Part shown: piece after piece, positions 1-11,617 of the stretch
Layout of the letters: each line of letters starts with the position of its first letter
How positions within the stretch are numbered: position 1 is the stretch's first letter
The notes under the pieces: model-generated
What the model was told of the DNA's origin: nothing
The model's database searches: none
Seen by the model: the letters and a program-made list of their open reading frames with translations, nothing else
Translations under genes and position numbers: made by a program
Assembly: GCA_949290445.1 (NCBI GenBank)
Contig: CASERW010000003.1
Location: forward strand, 1-64,000
Origin: Aeriscardovia aeriphila
GTDB lineage: Bacteria > Actinomycetota > Actinomycetes > Actinomycetales > Bifidobacteriaceae
Reading direction: 5' to 3'
Length of the DNA: 64,000 bases

Positions 1-1263
1 TTGCGAAGAAAGAGTGTTCATTGCGACGAGTTTCAAAGCCTGACAATCTTGAGCAAAGAGAAGAGAAACAGAGTAAGTGCCGTCAACAGAAGCGTGACGG
101 CGAATATTAGCGAAAACCTCTGTCACCAGCTGAATAGCCTCCTGACGAACCTGAGCACTCAGAGCTTCAGGGATGCCGGCGAGCTCAACATCAACAGTGC
201 CAGCGAACCCGAGAGCATCCAGCTTCGCTGTTTCACGGTTCGCGATGCGCGGCAACGCTTGTTGCAATGACCCGCGAGCATCAGCTACTTCATCAACAGG
301 CTCTGGCTCACCACGAAGCCTATCGATGGCAAAGTGAGCTTTATCAAGAGCGTCCTGAGCTTCATCGTATACATACTGCCAATCAGAAGAAGAAGTGACA
401 GGCTGGGGGTTTCCTAACGACGGCGAAGACTGAGATGAAGGTGAAGACGACGGTGAAGATGGAGGCGAAAGCGAAATCGCTGTATTCTCTTTTCCATTTC
501 CTCCGCTTGCAGTTTGGGATTGTTCTTGCAAAATATGCGAATATGCAATGGTTGCAATAAAAGAAAGATCATTAGTCAACCCATCATGCATTTGGCTCGC
601 CAAACGAACATTACGTTCCAACTGCTCAGCACGCTGCTTCTCCACCTGCAACTGAGCTGCTTGAACGTGAACCTGCATACGCCGCTGAATGTTGCGAATC
701 AGCATTCCTAGCAGCGCAGCTTGAAAAATATATCCCATTAATTGCAGCACTTCATCGCGAATCTGGTAGGTAGGGACGACATTGCGGCTTACCAATACGC
801 CCAGCGAGATGGTGAAAAGTAGTAGGGGGACGCAGAGAGAGATAAAGAGCTCCTTGCCGGAGCAATTCACAATTATCATGACGATGCAAGAAAGAGCAGT
901 CAGAATAAACGCAGCACCATTGAAGGTCGGCATTGAAGCTGCAATGCTCCATACACTCAAAAAGAGCATCGCGAAAGGGTATGTTCTCCACGCAAGCCCA
1001 AATGTTAACCCCATGAGCAGGAGAGCAGGAAGAAGATGCTCAACGTTAAAGAATCCAGAACTCATCAAGTAAATGGTGATTTCATAGATGAGAAGAACGA
1101 TAGCCGCGATAACAATAATGGTGTTTACCATTTTCCAATACGAAGCATCAGAAATTGGCTGTTCACCCTTGTTCTGAATCTGGCGATCGTTACTCTGTTC
1201 CGCCTTCTGTTCAGCATGCCGAATACCCACATGTACCAACAGTTGTTCCGCACGCTTCCTCAT
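1..1263 (-). CDS. Sensor histidine kinase, NarL/HisKA_3 type (partial, runs off window)
   Basis: Membrane sensor kinase of a two-component system. The frame is open from the ATG at 1263 to base 1, so only the first 421 residues are present. Five to six hydrophobic segments lie between residues 46 and 190. A charged helix (QAAQLQVEKQRAEQ) then leads to the phosphoacceptor motif MHDGLTND with His226. The ATPase N-box appears as EVFANIRRHAS close to the truncated end. Odd feature: about 55 Ser/Pro/Gln-rich residues (including SPPSSPSSSPSSQSSPS) sit between the two helices of the dimerisation hairpin. The ATG overlaps the stop of the response regulator gene (ATGA), so the two are translationally coupled. 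The signal sensed cannot be told; position suggests control of the adjacent lanthipeptide genes (inference). Confidence 0.85.
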   Translation of the reverse strand, partial: MRKRAEQLLVHVGIRHAEQKAEQSNDRQIQNKGEQPISDASYWKMVNTIIVIAAIVLLIYEITIYLMSSGFFNVEHLLPALLLMGLTFGLAWRTYPFAMLFLSVWSIAASMPTFNGAAFILTALSCIVMIIVNCSGKELFISLCVPLLLFTISLGVLVSRNVVPTYQIRDEVLQLMGYIFQAALLGMLIRNIQRRMQVHVQAAQLQVEKQRAEQLERNVRLASQMHDGLTNDLSFIATIAYSHILQEQSQTASGGNGKENTAISLSPPSSPSSSPSSQSSPSLGNPQPVTSSSDWQYVYDEAQDALDKAHFAIDRLRGEPEPVDEVADARGSLQQALPRIANRETAKLDALGFAGTVDVELAGIPEALSAQVRQEAIQLVTEVFANIRRHASVDGTYSVSLLFAQDCQALKLVAMNTLSSQ

Positions 1264-1952
1264 TTTTGACCTTTCACCCACAGTGCAACCATTTGTACGC
1301 GGTTCTTCGCTCCCACTTTCTCACACATCCGTTTGACGTGAGTGGTTATTGTTCCGTTGCTCACACCGAGCTCTTTCTGAATTTCTGGCGTAGAATAGCC
1401 TTCCGAACATAATCGGGCAATACGGTTTTCTACTTCTGTAAAAGTTTCTAGCCCTTGGGCTTTCGAATTCTGCGCTAACCGCTCGAATGCTTGGCGCGGA
1501 GGGAGAAAACCTGATTCCAGTGTGACGATCTCTGTGGTCTTGTGAGTATTGGCTTCGGAAACGCTCAGTGCAGTGACTATCCGGGAAAGCAAGGCGAGCA
1601 AAGTTGCAGGTTGACCTTTAGAAACAAGAGCTTGAGCTCCGGCTTGTGCCACTGAATCGCGATACTGTTCCAAAGGAAAAGAAGTCATAGCGATAATCCA
1701 CATTGAAGGATCGTGAAGCCGGATTTTCTTCGTCAGATCAATGCCGTCAAGGCCTGGCATAGACATGTCGGTGAGCAGAATTGTAGGATGCCGAGTTGGA
1801 CTCGCACTCAGAGCAAGCTGCTGGGCACGCAAGGAGTCACTCACGGCCCAGATGAGCTTAACCTGCTGCAAAGCTTGAGAAATAAGGTTTTTTAACGCGA
1901 CAAGGCTCAGAGGATCGTTATCGATCAATCCCAGTGTGATTTCCTTGCTCAT
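1260..1952 (-). CDS. Response regulator, NarL/LuxR family
   Basis: DNA-binding response regulator of 230 aa, the usual length. The N-terminal receiver domain shows the acidic pocket (IDNDP, residues 10-14), the phosphoacceptor Asp62 in TDMSMPGLDG and the conserved Lys in LVSKGQ. The C-terminal LuxR-type helix-turn-helix is seen at about residues 170-225 (YSTPEIQKELGVSNGTITTH then VKRMCEKVGAKNR). AGAAGG lies just upstream of the ATG. It is the first gene of an operon with the sensor kinase that follows by an ATGA overlap, and is transcribed away from the ABC permease at 2140. It probably controls the neighbouring lanthipeptide and transporter genes, but that is inferred from position only. Confidence 0.92.
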   Translation of the reverse strand: MSKEITLGLIDNDPLSLVALKNLISQALQQVKLIWAVSDSLRAQQLALSASPTRHPTILLTDMSMPGLDGIDLTKKIRLHDPSMWIIAMTSFPLEQYRDSVAQAGAQALVSKGQPATLLALLSRIVTALSVSEANTHKTTEIVTLESGFLPPRQAFERLAQNSKAQGLETFTEVENRIARLCSEGYSTPEIQKELGVSNGTITTHVKRMCEKVGAKNRVQMVALWVKGQK

Positions 1953-2002: not shown

Positions 2003-2139
2003 GCTATTTCCTTCTTCAGCTTAGCTTCTCCTGATAGCAACGCTTACTGAATGCACAGAAAAACAGACAGTGATTTTGAAGTAACGCTATAACCAAGCAC
2101 ACTGATAACACTCGCTTTATGTTCAAAAGGAGGTTCATT

Positions 2140-2916
2140 ATGAAAACAAAGCGTAGCCCTGTTCCTTCGCAGTTTTTCAAACACGTTCTTCTTGAATTGC
2201 GTATCTTTCTCATTGATGCTCGTTTCGAGACGACTGCTCTTTTTATCAATTTTATTCTTCCCAGCGCTTTGCTGGTTATTGCAATCCTCACTGCTCCGCA
2301 ACAAAACCTTACTGATACAACAGTTACTCGCGTGATATTCCAATTCACAACGTATATCTGCCTCACAACAGTAATGAATTTAGTGATCAGCTTCCTTGTC
2401 GTCTCACGGGAAGACGGCAACCTGCTCGTACACGCCCATATCTTTGGTTCGCCCAAACCATATATTTGGGGACTCATCGTCGGGCAGTCCATTATTTGCG
2501 CAGGAGAGGCATTGGCGTTAAGCGTATTGGGCATGCTCCTCACGAAGCATTTTCACTGGACCACTATTATCGCAGTGCTCATCGGGGCCCCTCTTGTTAC
2601 CACTCTTCTGTCCCTCTTCTTTTTGCCTTTAGTATTGTGGAAAGCAACAGCGAATAATAGTGCTGCAGTCATCACTGTGCTTCTCTTGGTTCTCTTTAAC
2701 ATCCCAGGAAAAGCTTCTCACCCACTGCTAGCTTTCTTGTTACAGTTAAACCCCGTTTATTTCTCGCAAAATGTCCAGTTGTTGTTATTCTCACCCATGA
2801 AGATGAGCACAACAGTTCAGCTTATTGCATGTGTTACCGTCCTTCTTCTCGCTGCATTTGCAGGAACTGTCACACTCAAAAAGTTTCCTTTGAGACCATT
2901 CCTCAAGCGAGCATAA
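2140..2916 (+). CDS. ABC-2 type transporter permease, no ATPase beside it
   Basis: Integral membrane protein of 258 aa with about six hydrophobic segments (for example ALFINFILPSALLVIAIL, LVISFLVV, AVITVLLLVLF, VLLLAAFAG), the layout of ABC-2 type exporter permeases of antibiotic and bacteriocin transport. The start at 2140 is chosen because AAAAGGAGG ends six bases before it; an ATG 21 bases upstream has no such site. The gene stands alone on the plus strand, converges on the synthetase gene and shares a strong hairpin terminator with it. It could pair with the intact ATPase at 5851-6618 as an immunity or export pump; this pairing is inference. Confidence 0.78.
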   Translation: MKTKRSPVPSQFFKHVLLELRIFLIDARFETTALFINFILPSALLVIAILTAPQQNLTDTTVTRVIFQFTTYICLTTVMNLVISFLVVSREDGNLLVHAHIFGSPKPYIWGLIVGQSIICAGEALALSVLGMLLTKHFHWTTIIAVLIGAPLVTTLLSLFFLPLVLWKATANNSAAVITVLLLVLFNIPGKASHPLLAFLLQLNPVYFSQNVQLLLFSPMKMSTTVQLIACVTVLLLAAFAGTVTLKKFPLRPFLKRA

Positions 2917-2971: not shown

Positions 2972-3032
2972 AAACTGCTCCCTGGCAATTGAACAATTCC
3001 ATATCCGTTCAATTTTGTCAGGGAGCAGTTTT
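2972..3032. terminator. Bidirectional terminator between ABC permease and lanKC
   Basis: A long hairpin: AAACTGCTCCCTG and CAATTGAAC on the left pair with GTTCAATTTTG and CAGGGAGCAGTTTT on the right. A-run on the left and T-run on the right let it serve both convergent genes. Its right edge overlaps the stop codon of the synthetase gene. Just upstream CTCTAGATA is repeated twice. Confidence 0.85.
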
Positions 3033-5760
3033 ACGCATTCATAGCAAATAATCTCAACTTAGCTGAAAGCAACGGAAACCACTCACTCCAACTGCCTTCT
3101 TCAGAAATACTGTGGAAAGCAAGAAGAATACCTGCCGATCCAGAGATATAGTCTGTGCTGCATTTATATCCAAACCAACCTGGGACTAATACCTCAGAAT
3201 CATTTCTCAACAGATAGCGAGAAATCTCCTTAATAAGCACATTTTCGGCGTTCTTACGAAGAAGACCCAAACTTTCTCCAGCTTGAGCAATGGGAATAAA
3301 CCCAGCCATTCCAGAGAACAAGCTGCAATTATATGACAATGATGGAAGGCATGAATCGAGAAGTTGCGGTAGGCAGTCAAGAACATCTTTGGTTAATGCT
3401 GTTGGATCGTCTTTATACACTTCCAACAGCAATAAAGAAATTCCAGCAGTTCCTGATTCAATATATGAAACTAACCTATCAAACCCTTTCCTTTGATCAA
3501 TCGCATAATAATCGCCCCTATCCACAATGAGAGAGGCCATAGCTTGTTGAACTATTTCTAAAGTTATTTCTCGTGAAATAGCTCTCAAATGTTCATCATT
3601 ACCGAATTGCGAATATTTCCAAGTAAATAAGGCTGCTCCTGCCCATCCTGTCAATAAGCCAAAGTCGATTGCAGAATTATTCTGCAAGGAATTATCCTCC
3701 GTTGCTTTATTCTGCAGTTCCTTTCTAGCTTCCCATAGTTCGTTAATTCTTCTGACTGCGAGTTCAAGAAGATCTTGATAATCATCAGCAGGTAATGAAT
3801 CTTGTGCTAATAAAGCTAGCGCAATTCCGGAAATACCTGAAAACAAGGAAATATCCGAAGATTCAAGCCACGCTCTATCGCGACTTAGTTCTTCTGTTAA
3901 TTCAGAGAGTGCAGCTGCCTTTCCTAACTCATATTGCGCGAGTTTGATCCCAGTAATTCCTGAGAACAGACCATAGTCATTATGATTACCATTTTCTAAA
4001 CTATGATCACTTTGTTTGCTAATAAAGCTTTGTACTGCTGAATTCAGTTTTTCTCTTTCCGGTACAGAAAGCTTCATTCGATTACTTGTGACATAGCGAG
4101 ACAGGGCGATTAACACTTCCGCACTCCCTGTTGCAATGTTGTCTTTCCCATATTGATAAGCACTCTGAGAAACATCACCAGGGAAACTCAATGTTTTCTC
4201 ATCCCAAGCAGAGATAATCCCTCGCGCAATTGCATCACAAGCTGAGCCGAGTGTATCAGTTGAGATTTCAGCAGTCAGAGGAAACAGAGGATAAGGGACT
4301 TTCCCCAGGTTAGTGCTTAAAGTATGTAGTTCTGCAGTACCTGTTAACTCTAGTAAGCGATGAAGTACATCTTCACCAAATTTCTCTTCAATCGCTTTGT
4401 TCTGCCATACTTCAATCGTGGGAGCTAATTCATGTAAAGGCGCACTCGGATAAAACATCATACGAACGATCTGCCTATATGCATACCAATCTTGCTCTTC
4501 AAAAGTACGTGCAGAATAGGAAACATACCCACGAGTAGCAAGAGAAGGAGCAAACTGAGCGCTAAGGGACATCCCTGCTTCACAGTCAATGATTGTAGGA
4601 ATTCCTTCAGCATTGAGAAGAATATTTTGAGGACTAATATCACACACTGAAATTCCACATTGATGAATGTGCTGAATAGTCTCTTTCAGGATTGCAGCTG
4701 CTTTCAGCATCTTCTGCGCATATGCCTCAGCTGCTTCGCTTTTATCCGCAGCTTGAGAGAAAGGATATTCAGCTGCTACAACCTGCTGAAGAGTATTCCC
4801 TTCTCCATATTCTTCAACAAGATAAGCGTGCCTCCACTCTACAAAGAATTCTATTGGGTTAACGACGTGTTCGACATGAGCCAGATGCGACAATACCCTA
4901 TATTCATTCTCGACGCGAGAAAATCCATCTCTACCAGTAGCGTCAATTCCTGCTCCTTTACGCCCCTCCTTCACAATGTAGTCACGCTTCTTGTCGGATG
5001 CGCGATACACTCCACCTGCATTCGAAAAGTGAATTGCCTGCTTTATCTCGTAACGAGAAAAAAGAGAATCACTTGATATCTGGACATCCTCGTTACCTGA
5101 AACAATTTCGTCAGGTTCTGTTACGAAGTCGGGCAAAACATAATATGGAACGCGAAGGTCTTCAATAGCCTCTCCAGTAGGTGTATAGATAACTGCTTTT
5201 TCTTGACCATCTATTACGGCCGTCATCTTCTTTAATCCGCCGTAGCGGAAATACACATTACTTTCTTTCCACGCCTTATCATTAAGAATGTATGGCCCGA
5301 GGCTGTACTTATCAGTTATATCCTTCAGCTTGTCCAATAGCCAAATAAACTGCTGTGTCGATGAAGGATAAATGGTAATAAATTTTCCTGAGTAAGCACG
5401 ATCAGCATACTTAGAATTCTTTGCAATCCATTCATCGACAGATGGAACATATTTGAAGGAAATATCCTGAGCAATAAGAAAATCAGCAACTTCTTGAAGC
5501 ACAAGCTGTAATTCTGCGGTTGCGGCAGAGATGTGGATCTTCCAACCCTGATTAGGGAATGTCGTCTTCTGAGACAGAACATACGTCCAATGCTCATCAG
5601 AAAAAGTTTCCCATCCTTGAGGAAGACCCATGAGATAAAGCTTGTTGTTCTTTACTGTCTGAGCATTGTCACTACGCTCTTCTTGCTGCACATAATAAAA
5701 ACTATTTCCATTTTTCGCAGCATTCTCATAGCTCATTGCATCTGAATAAATGATTGCCAT
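3031..5760 (-). CDS. Class III lanthipeptide synthetase (LanKC type)
   Basis: Modifies the precursor encoded at 8175-8324 by phosphorylating Ser/Thr, eliminating phosphate and cyclising onto Cys. It is 909 aa, usual for the family. N-terminal lyase region (about 1-215) has the characteristic GWKIHISAA (near 72-80) and LGPYILNDKAWK. The kinase domain (about 235-450) has the ATP-site Lys in YIVKEG, catalytic Asp374 in VCDISPQNILL and metal Asp392 in IIDCE. The C-terminal region (about 510-909) is LanC-like with repeated Gly-rich turns (LFSGITG, LLTGWAGAAL, LFSGMAGF, ISGSAGILLAF). The zinc ligands of LanC and class IV LanL (a Cys, then Cys-His-Gly) are absent, which points to class III. The start at 5760 is chosen for GCAGGAG seven bases upstream; an in-frame ATG at 5784 lacks a site. 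Codon and base use are AT-richer than the housekeeping genes. Confidence 0.92.
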   Translation of the reverse strand: MAIIYSDAMSYENAAKNGNSFYYVQQEERSDNAQTVKNNKLYLMGLPQGWETFSDEHWTYVLSQKTTFPNQGWKIHISAATAELQLVLQEVADFLIAQDISFKYVPSVDEWIAKNSKYADRAYSGKFITIYPSSTQQFIWLLDKLKDITDKYSLGPYILNDKAWKESNVYFRYGGLKKMTAVIDGQEKAVIYTPTGEAIEDLRVPYYVLPDFVTEPDEIVSGNEDVQISSDSLFSRYEIKQAIHFSNAGGVYRASDKKRDYIVKEGRKGAGIDATGRDGFSRVENEYRVLSHLAHVEHVVNPIEFFVEWRHAYLVEEYGEGNTLQQVVAAEYPFSQAADKSEAAEAYAQKMLKAAAILKETIQHIHQCGISVCDISPQNILLNAEGIPTIIDCEAGMSLSAQFAPSLATRGYVSYSARTFEEQDWYAYRQIVRMMFYPSAPLHELAPTIEVWQNKAIEEKFGEDVLHRLLELTGTAELHTLSTNLGKVPYPLFPLTAEISTDTLGSACDAIARGIISAWDEKTLSFPGDVSQSAYQYGKDNIATGSAEVLIALSRYVTSNRMKLSVPEREKLNSAVQSFISKQSDHSLENGNHNDYGLFSGITGIKLAQYELGKAAALSELTEELSRDRAWLESSDISLFSGISGIALALLAQDSLPADDYQDLLELAVRRINELWEARKELQNKATEDNSLQNNSAIDFGLLTGWAGAALFTWKYSQFGNDEHLRAISREITLEIVQQAMASLIVDRGDYYAIDQRKGFDRLVSYIESGTAGISLLLLEVYKDDPTALTKDVLDCLPQLLDSCLPSLSYNCSLFSGMAGFIPIAQAGESLGLLRKNAENVLIKEISRYLLRNDSEVLVPGWFGYKCSTDYISGSAGILLAFHSISEEGSWSEWFPLLSAKLRLFAMNA

Positions 5761-5850
5761 AATCGTCTCCTGCTCATCACCCATGAGAAATAGTGAGAGG
5801 AATATTCTTCGCCACCTTGGGTTTTCCTTTGTTTAACCTGCAGAAAAGAT

Positions 5851-6618
5851 TCACTCTTGCCCGACCAGATTGCGGAAAATGTCTGACGACTGATGAGAAT
5901 TCTCATTCTTGAGGAATGAGGAAGCTTTCCCCGCGCGAATACGAGGTGTAGAAAGCCCTGCTTGCTCAGCCATACTCTCCTGCTCAGCCAAACCTGTACC
6001 ACGCATACCTTCGTCGCTCAGAATAATGAGCCAAGGGTCACCAAAGAGGAAAATCTGTTCCATACTGTGAAGAGTGACGACAACTGTCCTCTTCATCTTT
6101 TCCTGCAGCCGCTGTTGCTGAACATCACTTCCTGCTCGAGGTAAAAGTGAAGTGATGGAATCAGCAATGAGCGAAGCATTATCAGGATCAACTCCCGAAA
6201 GCGGCTCGTCGAACAGGTACAGTTCTCTGTTCAACATGCATGCGCTCCATACGCTGACAATCTGGGCTTGCCCTCCCGAGAGCATACCCATCCGAGTTTT
6301 ACGATGAGGGTTAAGAATACCGATAAGCTTGTTCAGCGCGTGAGAAGAATTTCCTACAGCTTCAGGCCCAGAAATGCGATCAACCTGACGAATGATGTCA
6401 ATTTGCTCACTCACAGTCAGTGATTCAAATAAGCCATGGTTCTGGGTGATATATGCCGTATTGGGTCGAACTGATTGCGTATCGTTTCCGTTCTCATCAA
6501 TCTCGCCAGCAAGCGTATCCAGAAGAGTTGTTTTTCCAATTCCATTTCGACCAATAACGAGATTCACACAGTCATGAGCGAAGGGAATTTGCGAAACTTG
6601 GAATACCGGACGTACCAT
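5851..6618 (-). CDS. ABC transporter ATP-binding protein of the lanthipeptide exporter
   Basis: Cytoplasmic ATPase of 255 aa with every catalytic motif: Walker A GRNGIGKTT, Q-loop ITQNHG, signature LSGGQ, Walker B LYLFDEP and switch His in TLHS. The start at 6618 is fixed by AGGAGG immediately upstream (AGGAGGAAAAATG); a longer frame to 6753 would overlap the preceding gene and is less likely. It lies 49 bases after the permease/degenerate-ATPase gene and 90 bases before the synthetase gene in one minus-strand operon. The intact site here probably complements the degenerate one fused to the permease, giving an asymmetric exporter of the lanthipeptide. Confidence 0.92.
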   Translation of the reverse strand: MVRPVFQVSQIPFAHDCVNLVIGRNGIGKTTLLDTLAGEIDENGNDTQSVRPNTAYITQNHGLFESLTVSEQIDIIRQVDRISGPEAVGNSSHALNKLIGILNPHRKTRMGMLSGGQAQIVSVWSACMLNRELYLFDEPLSGVDPDNASLIADSITSLLPRAGSDVQQQRLQEKMKRTVVVTLHSMEQIFLFGDPWLIILSDEGMRGTGLAEQESMAEQAGLSTPRIRAGKASSFLKNENSHQSSDIFRNLVGQE

Positions 6619-6667
6619 TTTTCCTCCTGATGTTGGTGTTGGTTTGTTGGCTAAATCTGTTATTTCG

Positions 6668-8131
6668 TTAAGCAACAGGTGGTTTGCCACATCTATCTCG
6701 GAATATTTCTTCCGAAAGTTTCCCTTGTTTATCGCTAAATTTTGCGCTGACAATACCTGTCAGCACGATGTTTCCATGATTGTCAAGATTGATGAAACGA
6801 GCAGAGGGAAAATGCTGCATCTCATTAAGGTTGTTGACACTCACCACTGCAATGCTCTTTTCCTTCCTTTGCTCAGCACATATGTCGGCCAGAAGGTCGG
6901 CACAGTCTTTCCTTTCAGCGATAGAAGAAAAAGACGGACCAAAGAAATACACCGACCGGTTGAGATGAGCGATTCCCCACATCATGACCACGTTCCTCAC
7001 CAAACCCGACACATGGTCAATGCGCACCTTTCGATAAGGATGAAGTTCTTCTTCCATTGCCTTCAGCAATACTGGAAATCTTGAGCTCTGTTCGTGAGGA
7101 AGAGGAGGATCAACCTGTGCCATCAATTTCATGTGTTGCTTCACAGTAAGCTCCTGGTACGGCACTGCAAGCACAAGAGCACTTGGCCCATCGCCTGCCT
7201 GCTGAAGTTGGTGATACCAGCGATTCAGAAAAAGTGTTCTGTTCTCTTCATCGTTACCAATGAGGAATATGACAGGATCAGTCTCACCGTGATGATTATT
7301 TCTGGGACGATTATCCTTTGCACCCCACTGGCAAAACTCACCCTCTCCGACAGGGGAAGAAGGAGAAAAAGTGCGACTCCATCTTCTCACTATTGCTCCT
7401 GAGATGATGAGCATCGCAAGCATGAGAATGACCGCAATCACCTTTTCTTCAGTTGAGGCGAGAACCGAGATAAATTGCCCGATGACAATGCTTTGCACAG
7501 TGAAACAGGCATGCAAAGGGTCTACTGTCAAAATAAGATTAATAACAGTGTTGTCAGCAAAAGGTGGAATAACAAATACTATTACTCCGTATAGAACTCC
7601 TGTTATCTTATCGAGCTTCTTCACAGAAACTCTCGTCAACAGAAGAGGAATAAAGAACGCTGAGAAAAACAAGACTCCCAGCGGCTCTAATACCACAAAA
7701 AAGAGAATACAAATATTCAGCGACGACGGGAAAATCGCTATCAAAAAGAGCGAAATAACAATGATTTCGCCTGTTGCTTTGATACTTGCCGCGCTGAGCA
7801 ATCCCCACCATAGCGGTGCGAAACCACTCAATAAACTCTCTAAAGTTAAGAGCTCACCCGTTTCAGCCTTACTGACAAGCGGTAAAAACACACAATAGAG
7901 CGCTTCTCCCATAGCAATGTAACTTGCAACACTCATCAAAAACGGAAATATCGCTCCGTTTGATGCTTGAGGATTATTCAACTGAAAAGGGAGAGTAGCT
8001 AGCGTAAGGAAGAGCGGAAACCCAATTCCAACGACATTGGACATTCCATTCCTCACATCTGCGAGCAACGAAAAGCGCATGCACAGAATGAAATGATGAA
8101 GCGAGTGTGCCTGCCTTACGCTAGCTGTCAT
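6668..8131 (-). CDS. ABC-2 permease fused to a degenerate ATPase domain
   Basis: A 487-aa protein. Residues 1 to about 255 form an ABC-2 type permease with about six membrane segments. Residues about 285-487 follow the layout of an ABC ATPase, but its motifs are eroded: the Walker A position reads LIGNDEENRTLFL without the Gly-Lys-Ser/Thr core, the signature region reads HVSGLVRNVV, and the Walker B position reads VYFFGPSF without Asp-Glu. It therefore should not hydrolyse ATP. The start at 8131 is preceded by GAAGGGA. It is the second gene of the operon, 43 bases after the precursor gene. I infer it is the membrane half of the lanthipeptide exporter, using the intact ATPase of the next gene. 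Confidence 0.85.
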   Translation of the reverse strand: MTASVRQAHSLHHFILCMRFSLLADVRNGMSNVVGIGFPLFLTLATLPFQLNNPQASNGAIFPFLMSVASYIAMGEALYCVFLPLVSKAETGELLTLESLLSGFAPLWWGLLSAASIKATGEIIVISLFLIAIFPSSLNICILFFVVLEPLGVLFFSAFFIPLLLTRVSVKKLDKITGVLYGVIVFVIPPFADNTVINLILTVDPLHACFTVQSIVIGQFISVLASTEEKVIAVILMLAMLIISGAIVRRWSRTFSPSSPVGEGEFCQWGAKDNRPRNNHHGETDPVIFLIGNDEENRTLFLNRWYHQLQQAGDGPSALVLAVPYQELTVKQHMKLMAQVDPPLPHEQSSRFPVLLKAMEEELHPYRKVRIDHVSGLVRNVVMMWGIAHLNRSVYFFGPSFSSIAERKDCADLLADICAEQRKEKSIAVVSVNNLNEMQHFPSARFINLDNHGNIVLTGIVSAKFSDKQGKLSEEIFRDRCGKPPVA

Positions 8132-8174
8132 TGTGAAATCCCTTCAACGAAACAGAGGAATGCAGTCGAGAAAC

Positions 8175-8324
8175 TTATCTACATACAAAACTGCCGAAAC
8201 TGTTAGGAAGAATGAATAGGGTGCTAGAAGCGCTACTCCCACTATCGCTTCCAGGCATCTCCCATTCTCTATGAATAATCCCACCCGATGTTCGCATTTT
8301 TTGAAGATCTAAAATGTTCTTCAT
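8175..8324 (-). CDS. Class III lanthipeptide precursor peptide (LanA)
   Basis: A 49-aa peptide beginning MKNILDLQKMRTSGG and ending LFILPNSFGSFVCR. ILDLQ at residues 4-8 is the leader box recognised by class III synthetases (ILxLQ pattern of labyrinthopeptin-type leaders). The C-terminal part is rich in Ser (GSDSGSSASS, residues 25-34) and carries a single Cys48. S42-F-G-S45-F-V-C48 fits the labionin/lanthionine motif S-x2-S-x(2-5)-C. AGAAAGGAAAACT precedes the ATG. It is first in the minus-strand operon followed by exporter and synthetase genes, the expected place. The leader cleavage point cannot be read; residues MPGSDS around 23-28 are a plausible border. Ring pattern is inference. Confidence 0.88.
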   Translation of the reverse strand: MKNILDLQKMRTSGGIIHREWEMPGSDSGSSASSTLFILPNSFGSFVCR

Positions 8325-8328
8325 AGTT

Positions 8329-8359
8329 TTCCTTTCTAGTTCCTTAATGGTTCCTTTCT
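8329..8359. promoter_or_regulatory. Three TTCCTT repeats at exact 11-bp spacing upstream of lanA
   Basis: TTCCTT occurs at 8329, 8340 and 8351, one helical turn apart, so the same face of the DNA is presented three times (AAGGAA in the direction of the precursor gene). The copy nearest the gene overlaps its ribosome binding site. Next to them GAAAAGGC (8363-8370) and GCCTTCTC (8377-8384) form an imperfect inverted repeat. Candidate binding site for the response regulator or another regulator. Confidence 0.35.
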
Positions 8360-8435
8360 CAGGAAAAGGCTACGTTGCCTTCTCTTGCTCAAGAAATCAG
8401 TGTCTGTTTTCTCTCAATACTCTTCAAAAGGAATG

Positions 8436-8464
8436 TTGCAATAACCCTGTATTCGCCGTACAAT
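8436..8464 (+). promoter_or_regulatory. Sigma-70-type promoter for the divergent lipoprotein transcript
   Basis: TTGCAA at 8436-8441 and TACAAT at 8459-8464 are separated by 17 bases, placing transcription start near 8471, upstream of the short frame at 8511 and the lipoprotein gene at 8600. Confidence 0.55.
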
Positions 8465-8510
8465 TGTGTTACTCACAATGTCGTGAGCCTGATTGAAGGA
8501 GATGATACCG

Positions 8511-8561
8511 ATGCGTATCTTCACAAAGCTATGGCGTCATTGCTCCAATGGATATTGCTAA
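8511..8561 (+). CDS. Possible 16-aa peptide gene (MRIFTKLWRHCSNGYC)
   Basis: A very short frame with a strong ribosome site (AAGGAGAT eight bases before ATG), lying between a good promoter and the lipoprotein gene. The peptide is basic with two Cys (MRIFTKLWRHCSNGYC). It could be a leader peptide setting expression of the lipoprotein gene, a signalling peptide, or chance. It lacks a leader box and is not a second lanthipeptide precursor. Confidence 0.3.
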   Translation: MRIFTKLWRHCSNGYC

Positions 8562-8599
8562 CTCGAATAACGTCACGTTGATAGAACATATCAAGTAGC

Positions 8600-9757
8600 A
8601 TGAAGCGTCTTACCTCTGTGATTATGGTTTTTCTGGCAGTGTTATCACTGCCTGGGTGCTCTCATAAAACGACAACACTGCCAGAAAATACCTTTTATTC
8701 TCTTGTGCAATCCGATATACTCACCGCCCGTGCACAAACCTATGCCTTCTCTGAAAACGGGAAACAGCTCGCTTCTGCAAACATCAAACTGCAAGATGGC
8801 GAATACTACGCACTTGATGAATCCAGAAATTACTACATTGCCGGAGCTCGAGCGAACGATAACCTTCTCACCATCCAGGGTAAACAAAGCAGCTTTCATC
8901 TCCTTGATAACCCACATTATTCGGGCTCAACAGCAATATGCTTTGAAAATGGGATTACTTATTCTTCAATGAATGGGAATATGGATGAGAAAGAAGGGTA
9001 CTTATCGCTTGTAGTAGCACGAGATACCTCGACAAAGAAAACCCTATACAAAACAGTCGTACCTCTTTTCGCTCATGATATGGATGTCATTGGCGATGAT
9101 CTTTATTTAGTGGGTGATAACCAAGGGCCAAATCACAATTCCGCTGTCATAACGATTGTGAACAAGCAAAATGGAACGATCATTTCAACGCAGACTTATC
9201 AACAGTTCTCTAGCTTCAGTTCACTCGTCACACTCGGCAATGCACTCTTCCTCCTGGGCCAATCTACGCTATCTTCTGCAAAGGAAATCTTCACTCTCCA
9301 AGATGGTGACATTTCCGAGCTTCCCCACCGCCAGAAGGGTGATGTTATTGACGGAGGGGATATTCTCAACATCTATCCTTGTGAAGGTAAGTTACTTGTA
9401 TTGAAAGCTAACGAGCTCTTACTCATGGACAAAACCGGAACCGTACTCTCCCGGTATGAGGATGAGAAAATGAGCGAAGGCTCGCATGATATCCAAATCG
9501 TTGATGGAACCATTTACGACATTAAAACTCCTTTCCCAGAATTTGATTATGACACCACAACGATCACCCAATTTGATTCTCAAACACTGAGAAAACACGG
9601 CCATGTGACGTTACACGTGAAACGCCTTCCCAACCAGATCGTTATCGTGAAGCCAGCGCTAGAAGAGAAAAAACGACAGCCGCATATGCGCGAAAATAGC
9701 TCCTCTCCCCCTCATCTTCTCCGCAAGCCAGTAGAATGGCAACTTCTTTATGAGTAG
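8600..9757 (+). CDS. Putative lipoprotein of the lanthipeptide island
   Basis: A 385-aa exported protein with a signal peptide and lipobox (VLSLPGCSHK, Cys20), so it should be lipid-anchored on the outer face of the membrane. The mature part has repeated short beta-strand blocks with Gly/Asp turns (such as DVIGDDLYLVGDN, LVTLGNALFLLGQ, EGKLLVLKANELLLM, IQIVDGTIYDI-like), suggestive of a beta-propeller. No family is recognised with certainty. It is transcribed divergently from the precursor operon behind the promoter at 8436 and ends 32 bases before khpA. Its own ribosome site is weak. A role as immunity lipoprotein or sensor for the lanthipeptide is an inference from position. Confidence 0.75.
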   Translation: MKRLTSVIMVFLAVLSLPGCSHKTTTLPENTFYSLVQSDILTARAQTYAFSENGKQLASANIKLQDGEYYALDESRNYYIAGARANDNLLTIQGKQSSFHLLDNPHYSGSTAICFENGITYSSMNGNMDEKEGYLSLVVARDTSTKKTLYKTVVPLFAHDMDVIGDDLYLVGDNQGPNHNSAVITIVNKQNGTIISTQTYQQFSSFSSLVTLGNALFLLGQSTLSSAKEIFTLQDGDISELPHRQKGDVIDGGDILNIYPCEGKLLVLKANELLLMDKTGTVLSRYEDEKMSEGSHDIQIVDGTIYDIKTPFPEFDYDTTTITQFDSQTLRKHGHVTLHVKRLPNQIVIVKPALEEKKRQPHMRENSSSPPHLLRKPVEWQLLYE

Positions 9758-10714: not shown

Positions 10715-11617
10715 ATGCTGCTTGATATTGTTTCCGTTTTCCCCGACTACTTCCAGATTCTCAACCTCTCGCTTCTGGGCAAGGCTCAGCAGGATGGTTT
10801 GGTTGAGGTGCACGCCCACAATTTGCGCGATTGGACTCATGACGTTCACCATTCTGTCGATGACACTCCTGTCGGCGGCGGGGCTGGAATGGTGATGAAA
10901 CCTGAAATTTGGGCTTCCTGTTTGGATGAGCTTTTGGGTATGCCTGCGCTCAGTTTAGATGCTTCTGCTCAGGCTATGGCGAACGCTACTGCTGACCTCG
11001 CGTCGTCTTTTTCTTCTGGCTACGCTCCAGATTATCAGTCCGCTTCTTCGCCCGCGGATGATGACAAGCCAGTGTTAATCTTCCCGGACCCTTCGGCTCC
11101 TCTGTTTACGCAGGAAGCCGCCCAGGAGCTTTCCCACCACCAGCATCTTGTGTTTGGGTGCGGCCGTTACGAGGGTATTGATGCTCGTGTGGGGCAATAT
11201 TATGCAGCTCAGGGAGTGGATGTTCGAGAGTATTCTCTGGGTGATTATGTTCTCAATGGTGGTGAGGTTGCCGTCTGCGTGATGATTGAGGCTATCACGC
11301 GCTTGATTCCTGGGTTTATGGGTAACCCTGATTCGATTGTGGATGAGTCGTATACGGGTGAGCCGCTGCTGGAGCATCGTCAGTTTACTCGTCCGACGAC
11401 ATGGCGAGGCTTATCCGTTCCTCCTGTTCTTACTTCGGGTGACCATGCGAAGGTTGATCGTTTTCGTCGTGATGAAAAGTTAGTGCGGACGAATGCTGTG
11501 CGCCCGGACCTTATCGAGAAGTTAGATACTCATTCTTTGGATAAAGCTGACCGTAAGCTTCTCATGAGCTTGGGGTGGGATGTGAGTGGAGATCACCCTC
11601 GGCGAGTGCGCAAGTAG
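10715..11617 (+). CDS. trmD: tRNA (guanine-N1-)-methyltransferase TrmD
   Basis: Makes m1G37 in tRNAs using S-adenosylmethionine. The trefoil-knot motifs are present: [16 protein letters not shown] near residues 49-64 and [10 protein letters not shown] near 147-156, then [11 protein letters not shown]. At 300 aa it is longer than the usual 240-260 because of a Ser/Ala-rich insertion at about residues 75-118 ([20 protein letters not shown] and following). This insertion contains one copy of the GATTATCAG motif at 11030. Third gene of the khpA-rimM-trmD group; no clear ribosome site, so translation may depend on coupling. Confidence 0.95.

Follow-up and report, generated by a model that had tools for sequence, protein, structure and literature searches.

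The question raised by this locus is whether a gut relative of the bifidobacteria, from the genus that holds Aeriscardovia aeriphila, makes a class III lanthipeptide, a kind of product of which no description from Bifidobacteriaceae was found in the literature. Bifidobacteria are described as poor bacteriocin sources (PMC11840169), and reports list lanthipeptide clusters of classes I, II and IV in them; no report of a class III cluster in bifidobacteria was found. The DNA analysed here (the window) is a 64-kb stretch from a 71-contig assembly of 84% completeness, and the cluster is truncated by the contig end. A preliminary description had assigned 3031-8324 to a class III cluster, with a 49-aa precursor frame heading a minus-strand run of exporter and LanKC genes. 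That gene order (precursor - permease/NBD fusion - ABC ATPase - LanKC) was confirmed, and a class III cluster does lie there, but the gene set extends beyond the interval to a regulator, a kinase and a second permease at 1-2916. The predicted features are:

1-1263, minus strand: sensor histidine kinase, truncated by the contig end so that 421 aa are read, and 87% identical to its A. aeriphila counterpart
1260-1952, minus strand: LuxR-type response regulator, with relatives near LanKC in Bifidobacterium genomes G073 and G050
2119-2916, plus strand: 265-aa ABC-type permease, by sequence comparison a paralogue of the membrane part of the 487-aa protein
3031-5784, minus strand: class III lanthionine synthetase LanKC, 917 aa (lyase, kinase and zinc-free LanC-like cyclase), assigned by model NF038151, the RamC_N, Pkinase and LANC_like domains, a residue check and homologues in PDB (8sap/8sam)
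5851-6618, minus strand: ABC ATPase with intact motifs (GRNGIGKTT, LSGGQ, LYLFDEP), 90% identical in A. aeriphila
6668-8131, minus strand: 487-aa ABC protein with an N-terminal membrane domain and a C-terminal nucleotide-binding domain that has no recognisable Walker A, signature or Walker B
8175-8324, minus strand: lanthipeptide precursor (LanA), 49 aa, with leader box ILDLQ, Ser-rich core and C-terminal SFGSFVC(R), homologous to a Jeotgalibaca dankookensis plasmid peptide
8329-8336, minus strand: Shine-Dalgarno-like AGAAAGGA 5' of the precursor ATG, read from the sequence

Each gene that lies wholly inside the contig is open and of full length. The locus is best read as a functional-looking class III cluster with the 49-aa precursor as its substrate, at a probability of about 0.88, since LanKC passes the curated model, the residues that matter in a solved relative are conserved, and a homologous precursor stands beside the nearest LanKC. 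The cluster is assigned to the known class III, of the labionin or lanthionine type, with one ring motif as in the paenithopeptins and bacinapeptins.

The synthetase scored 619.4 bits against the curated class III model NF038151 (cut-off 575), as compared with 311 bits against the class IV model (cut-off 650). Several of its relatives have solved structures, among them ThurKC (8sap, 8sam), to which it was aligned using the residue list of PMC10604976. The eight catalytic residues of the ThurKC lyase (K65, H67, K94, K108, K117, D152, R163 and R191; PMC10604976) are all identical by alignment and correspond to K82, H84, K111, K125, K134, D169, R180 and R211. The kinase retains K272 and E294 (beta-3 Lys and alpha-C Glu) together with CDISPQN and IIDCE, and in the leader pocket Y165, Y260, E273 and W317 are the same as in ThurKC. 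The short motifs reported earlier for the lyase and kinase parts (GWKIHISAA, VCDISPQN and IIDCE) are all present, and the LanC-like part had rightly been described as lacking zinc ligands: the corresponding positions read E776/F823/S824 against S726/F770/D771 in ThurKC, the first being alignment-dependent owing to loops. D771 of ThurKC is conserved neither in the window LanKC nor in the other Bifidobacteriaceae LanKCs aligned. A single-sequence structure model of the enzyme (mean pLDDT 36) was too poor for use. No LanKC was found in viral contigs.

Translation of 8175-8324 on the minus strand gives MKNILDLQKMRTSGGIIHREWEMPGSDSGSSASSTLFILPNSFGSFVCR, in which residues 4-8 are ILDLQ and residues 42-48 SFGSFVC, followed by one Arg, just as had been claimed for this frame. 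It thus combines an LxLQ box near the N-terminus with S-x2-S-x(2-5)-C in the core, as expected of a LanA; the core has a single ring motif and only one Cys. The AGG of the Shine-Dalgarno-like element lies 6 nt upstream of the ATG. All frames of the window were scanned for open reading frames of 30-120 aa that combine a strict leader box with a ring motif at the C-terminus, and this frame was the sole match. By 40 first-order Markov shuffles, 0.075 such frames are expected by chance per 64 kb; loosening the box to LxLQ raises this to 1.3. The motif by itself is only moderately unlikely by chance, so the case is carried by the frame's place as first gene of the operon and by its homologue in another genome. 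Curated precursor models NF038154, NF038159 and NF033212 gave 15.7, 11.2 and 12.9 bits, all under cut-off; the last is the SapB/AmfS family model (cut-off 25 bits), whose two-ring core is absent here. TBLASTN with the precursor against 189 Bifidobacteriaceae genomes gave chance-level matches only, besides itself, and no match was found among plasmids. The promoter and terminator scan was likewise at chance level.

The nearest LanKC found is encoded on a 20-kb plasmid (NZ_CP019729.1) of Jeotgalibaca dankookensis EX-07, a member of the Lactobacillales, with 37.2% identity over 98% of its length. Two genes upstream of it lies a 45-aa peptide annotated as hypothetical, MKNPVLDLQVVTYGNPVKEHPGLGGGSSSSSSSSSIENSSFSIFC, of the pattern MKNPVLDLQ...GGGSSSSSSSSSIENSSFSIFC. 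Its alignment with the window precursor scored 68, against 25.1 +/- 4.9 for 500 composition-preserving shuffles (0/500 reach it, z = 8.7), a score owed partly to the common Ser-rich region; BLASTP with composition adjustment aligned the leader only (E = 0.033). On the shuffle-tested alignment the J. dankookensis peptide is a clear homologue. The proposed check of the precursor against relatives therefore had a divided outcome: a homologous precursor does stand beside the nearest LanKC, but no orthologue was found in other Aeriscardovia genomes, so that purifying selection on the precursor cannot be demonstrated. Since the J. dankookensis homologue matches none of the curated class III models either, the two peptides would form a precursor subfamily outside them; peptides of Bifidobacterium G050 and S. 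salivarius, unlike these two, score above a curated precursor cut-off. Endings of the form S-x2-S-x2-C are shared by the window precursor, the J. dankookensis peptide, the peptide of Bifidobacterium G073 (SSWSWFC) and those of L. helsingborgensis (SHKSKYC, SHTSFHC), whereas S. salivarius, S. simulans, Priestia and S. epidermidis, the remaining relatives from Firmicutes, end in S-x2-S-x3-C. A smaller ring is therefore possible in the LanKC clade of the first four, and ring size may follow clade, as far as these few sequences go. The J. dankookensis locus resembles the window in its MKN-x-LDLQ leader, Ser run and single C-terminal S-x2-S-x2-C; it differs in that its precursor precedes a fused ABC exporter and in having no adjoining two-component system or split ABC set. 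No characterised product of this lanKC locus was found in the literature.

In the 487-aa protein the N-terminal part is related to the permease at 2119-2916 and the C-terminal part to the adjoining ATPase, for which a start at ATG 6618 is preferred over TTG 6753. The 487-aa protein had no sequence match in Pfam or PDB and no relative beyond Aeriscardovia among 297 genomes of the class and plasmids, and its single-sequence structure model (mean pLDDT 41.5) was too poor for use. A LanFEG-type immunity transporter would have one ATPase and two small permeases with LanF/E/G family matches. The window has a live ATPase and a pair of related membrane domains, one of them in a permease bearing a dead ATPase domain, and neither the 487-aa nor the 265-aa protein matched LanE or LanG at E up to 1. 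Permease, fusion and ATPase would together make up an asymmetric transporter in which one ATPase domain is live and the other dead, serving immunity or export. On another contig of the same genome, C59 (L086:1-8163), the regulator, kinase, permease, fusion and ATPase each have a paralogue, and a 653-aa ABC exporter lies beside rpsP. The two fusion paralogues (window 6668-8131 and L086:479-1894) are 23% identical and both keep the permease/dead-ATPase design. Window bases 1-99 recur exactly in C59, and the two contigs therefore meet at an assembly branch, as two alleles or two (tandem) copies. Since C59 carries the 653-aa exporter next to rpsP, the exporter of the peptide may sit just outside the window. 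A leader protease was not found within the cluster, nor an M16 peptidase in the 84% complete assembly; the one M1 peptidase of the genome, on contig C13, is no more than a generic candidate for a role like that of AplP. A 385-aa lipoprotein gene (8600-9757, plus strand) is divergent from the precursor, and only its last ~56 codons are left in A. aeriphila; it was dropped as a cluster member, its relatives having been found in genomes without LanKC.

In a maximum-likelihood tree of 23 LanKCs, in which Firmicutes were drawn from plasmid records only, the window enzyme groups with that of Bifidobacterium G073 (95/92), then with J. dankookensis (99/96) and L. helsingborgensis (100/99), within a Firmicutes clade. 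A fully supported branch separates this clade from most actinobacterial enzymes and from that of Bifidobacterium G063. A SapB-like actinobacterial origin is dismissed in view of this tree, within its plasmid-only sampling of Firmicutes. The cluster was apparently acquired horizontally from a Lactobacillales-type source. The GC content of the cluster genes is 41-49%, that of the rest of the window 55% and that of the adjoining KH-rimM-trmD genes 54%.

The cluster occupies the site between rpsP and KH-rimM-trmD, and the same site can be followed in other genomes. In A. aeriphila LMG 21773 (L031, L088), rpsP is followed by an ABC remnant, then by kinase, regulator and permease, a LanKC remnant, the ATPase, an ABC fusion remnant and a lipoprotein remnant, and finally by KH, rimM and trmD. 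Its flanks are 87-94% identical to those of the window, but it has no precursor left, almost no LanKC and only half of an ABC gene: the LanKC remnant has 61 codons (93% identical), and the 220 bp bearing the precursor have given way to ~30 bp. Genome G002 has an empty site, with KH directly after rpsP. Genome G003 has a 3.6-kb rpsP-KH gap with an ATPase relic similar by eye to the window ATPase. From these three states it follows that the rpsP-KH site gains and loses such material. The gap in G003 holds a different insertion (L101:2862-7046), with LytTR-like and Fic/Doc-like frames recognised by eye beside the ABC ATPase relic.

The locus had been presented as lacking any characterised class III counterpart in the family. 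No paper on such a product was found, and in this respect the claim stands, but class III clusters are not confined to the window genome; Bifidobacteriaceae genomes hold at least three kinds. Bifidobacterium G073, whose LanKC is the sister of the window enzyme, has an exporter different from that of the window. The G050 cluster has precursors that exceed the curated lanthi_III_b cut-off, and its exporter differs from that of the window. Three precursor-like frames occur in G050 (L033:7905-8045, the region 8074-8203 in another frame with its start within 7991-8203, and 10807-10941), two of them above that cut-off. The G063 cluster (L034:6326-6460, 6441-8993 and 4460-6262) is, unlike that of the window, of the actinobacterial type, with a different exporter and an adjoining prolyl oligopeptidase that is likely the leader protease; its precursor, MGNNVLDFQ...STLTYSNC, is the same in G029, G080 and G124. 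In genus g5 (L038-L042) LanKC fragments were observed, N-terminal in G134, G147, G143 and G150 and C-terminal in G133. They adjoin a 481-aa frame (FtsX-like in G133, where scanned), in some cases with ABC exporters, and are apparently decayed class III clusters.

Several other explanations of the locus have to be weighed. The peptide might be surface-active or a signal to its own producer, like SapB/AmfS from the ram/amf systems of Streptomyces, with no antibacterial role. Antibacterial activity is often absent from class III products (PMC10673953), and the precursor gave a weak match to the SapB/AmfS model (E = 0.092). The cluster also encodes a LuxR-type response regulator, which is what RamR is in the ram cluster. 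The window LanKC, however, groups with Lactobacillales enzymes and apart from the majority of actinobacterial ones, the core carries a single ring motif instead of two, and the extra permease/ATPase set looks more like self-protection; to our knowledge, moreover, Aeriscardovia is not known for aerial hyphae. A role confined to the producer is thus unlikely, if by no means far-fetched.

A cluster that is decaying and silent, with LanKC and precursor still open while the system is being lost, would agree with the state of A. aeriphila, which has no precursor, little of LanKC, only a part of the ABC fusion gene and a minor part of the lipoprotein gene, with the lone ATPase relic of G003 and with the LanKC fragments of other Bifidobacteriaceae. 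Such a state is rather improbable for the window itself, where the complete genes are all open and the LanKC catalytic residues intact. It is far less probable still that the 49-aa frame arose by chance and that the true precursor lies elsewhere. The failure of every curated precursor model to reach cut-off and the missing Aeriscardovia orthologue would fit a chance frame, but the low strict-motif expectation, the position first in the operon behind a ribosome-binding site, the same ring spacing in the homologous neighbour of the nearest LanKC and the lack of any other candidate in the window all speak against it.

For a functional-looking class III cluster with this precursor, the anatomy of the locus suggests the following course. 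The LuxR-type two-component system (1-1952) would switch the cluster on, and the ILDLQ helix of the precursor would settle into the LanKC groove that separates the lyase domain from the kinase domain. The enzyme would then phosphorylate and eliminate up to nine core Ser/Thr residues and, needing no zinc, join S42, S45 and C48 in a single labionin or lanthionine ring. For a core cut ahead of G25, complete dehydration would lower the calculated [M+H]+ from 2523.18 to 2361.09. The peptide would presumably leave through an ABC exporter and lose its leader to a protease encoded elsewhere, while the permease, the permease/dead-NBD fusion and the live ATPase most likely act as a transporter for peptide export or producer protection. 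The likeliest role of the peptide is narrow-spectrum antibacterial action or signalling, directed against close relatives. More tentatively, and with somewhat less than even chances, the window and J. dankookensis peptides may be the first members of a new subfamily of class III precursors (a dehydrated Ser run with one small S-x2-S-x2-C ring), paired in Aeriscardovia with a genus-specific permease/dead-ATPase fusion that works alongside a live ATPase of its own gene in immunity or export. Together with the other clusters of the family, the locus shows that class III reached Bifidobacteriaceae on more than one occasion, in this case apparently from a source of the Lactobacillales type. It would also be a compact system of one precursor, one enzyme and one ring, and its presence at a single chromosomal site, intact in one species and decayed in another, illustrates the gain and loss of such clusters among closely related species.

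Among known systems, SapB of Streptomyces (ramCSABR) has a class III synthetase, an LxLQ-type leader, ABC genes and a LuxR-type regulator, all of which have counterparts in the window; it differs in having two ring motifs, and the window LanKC belongs to the Firmicutes clade. The paenithopeptins and bacinapeptins (the Pre_24 group of Firmicutes), which come from different genera and are matured by an M16B pair, are likened to the window peptide by ring motif only, their cores too having just one S-x2-S-x(2-5)-C (PMC8960859). Andalusicin of Bacillus thuringiensis, with its synthetase ThurKC (PDB 8sap, 8sam), differs from the window system in its several precursors, its methyltransferase and its M16B proteases. 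ThurKC and the window LanKC are about 29% identical, both zinc-free class III enzymes with the same catalytic and leader-pocket residues, and andalusicin carries a single terminal Cys ring behind many upstream dehydrations (PMC10604976), the arrangement predicted for the window product.
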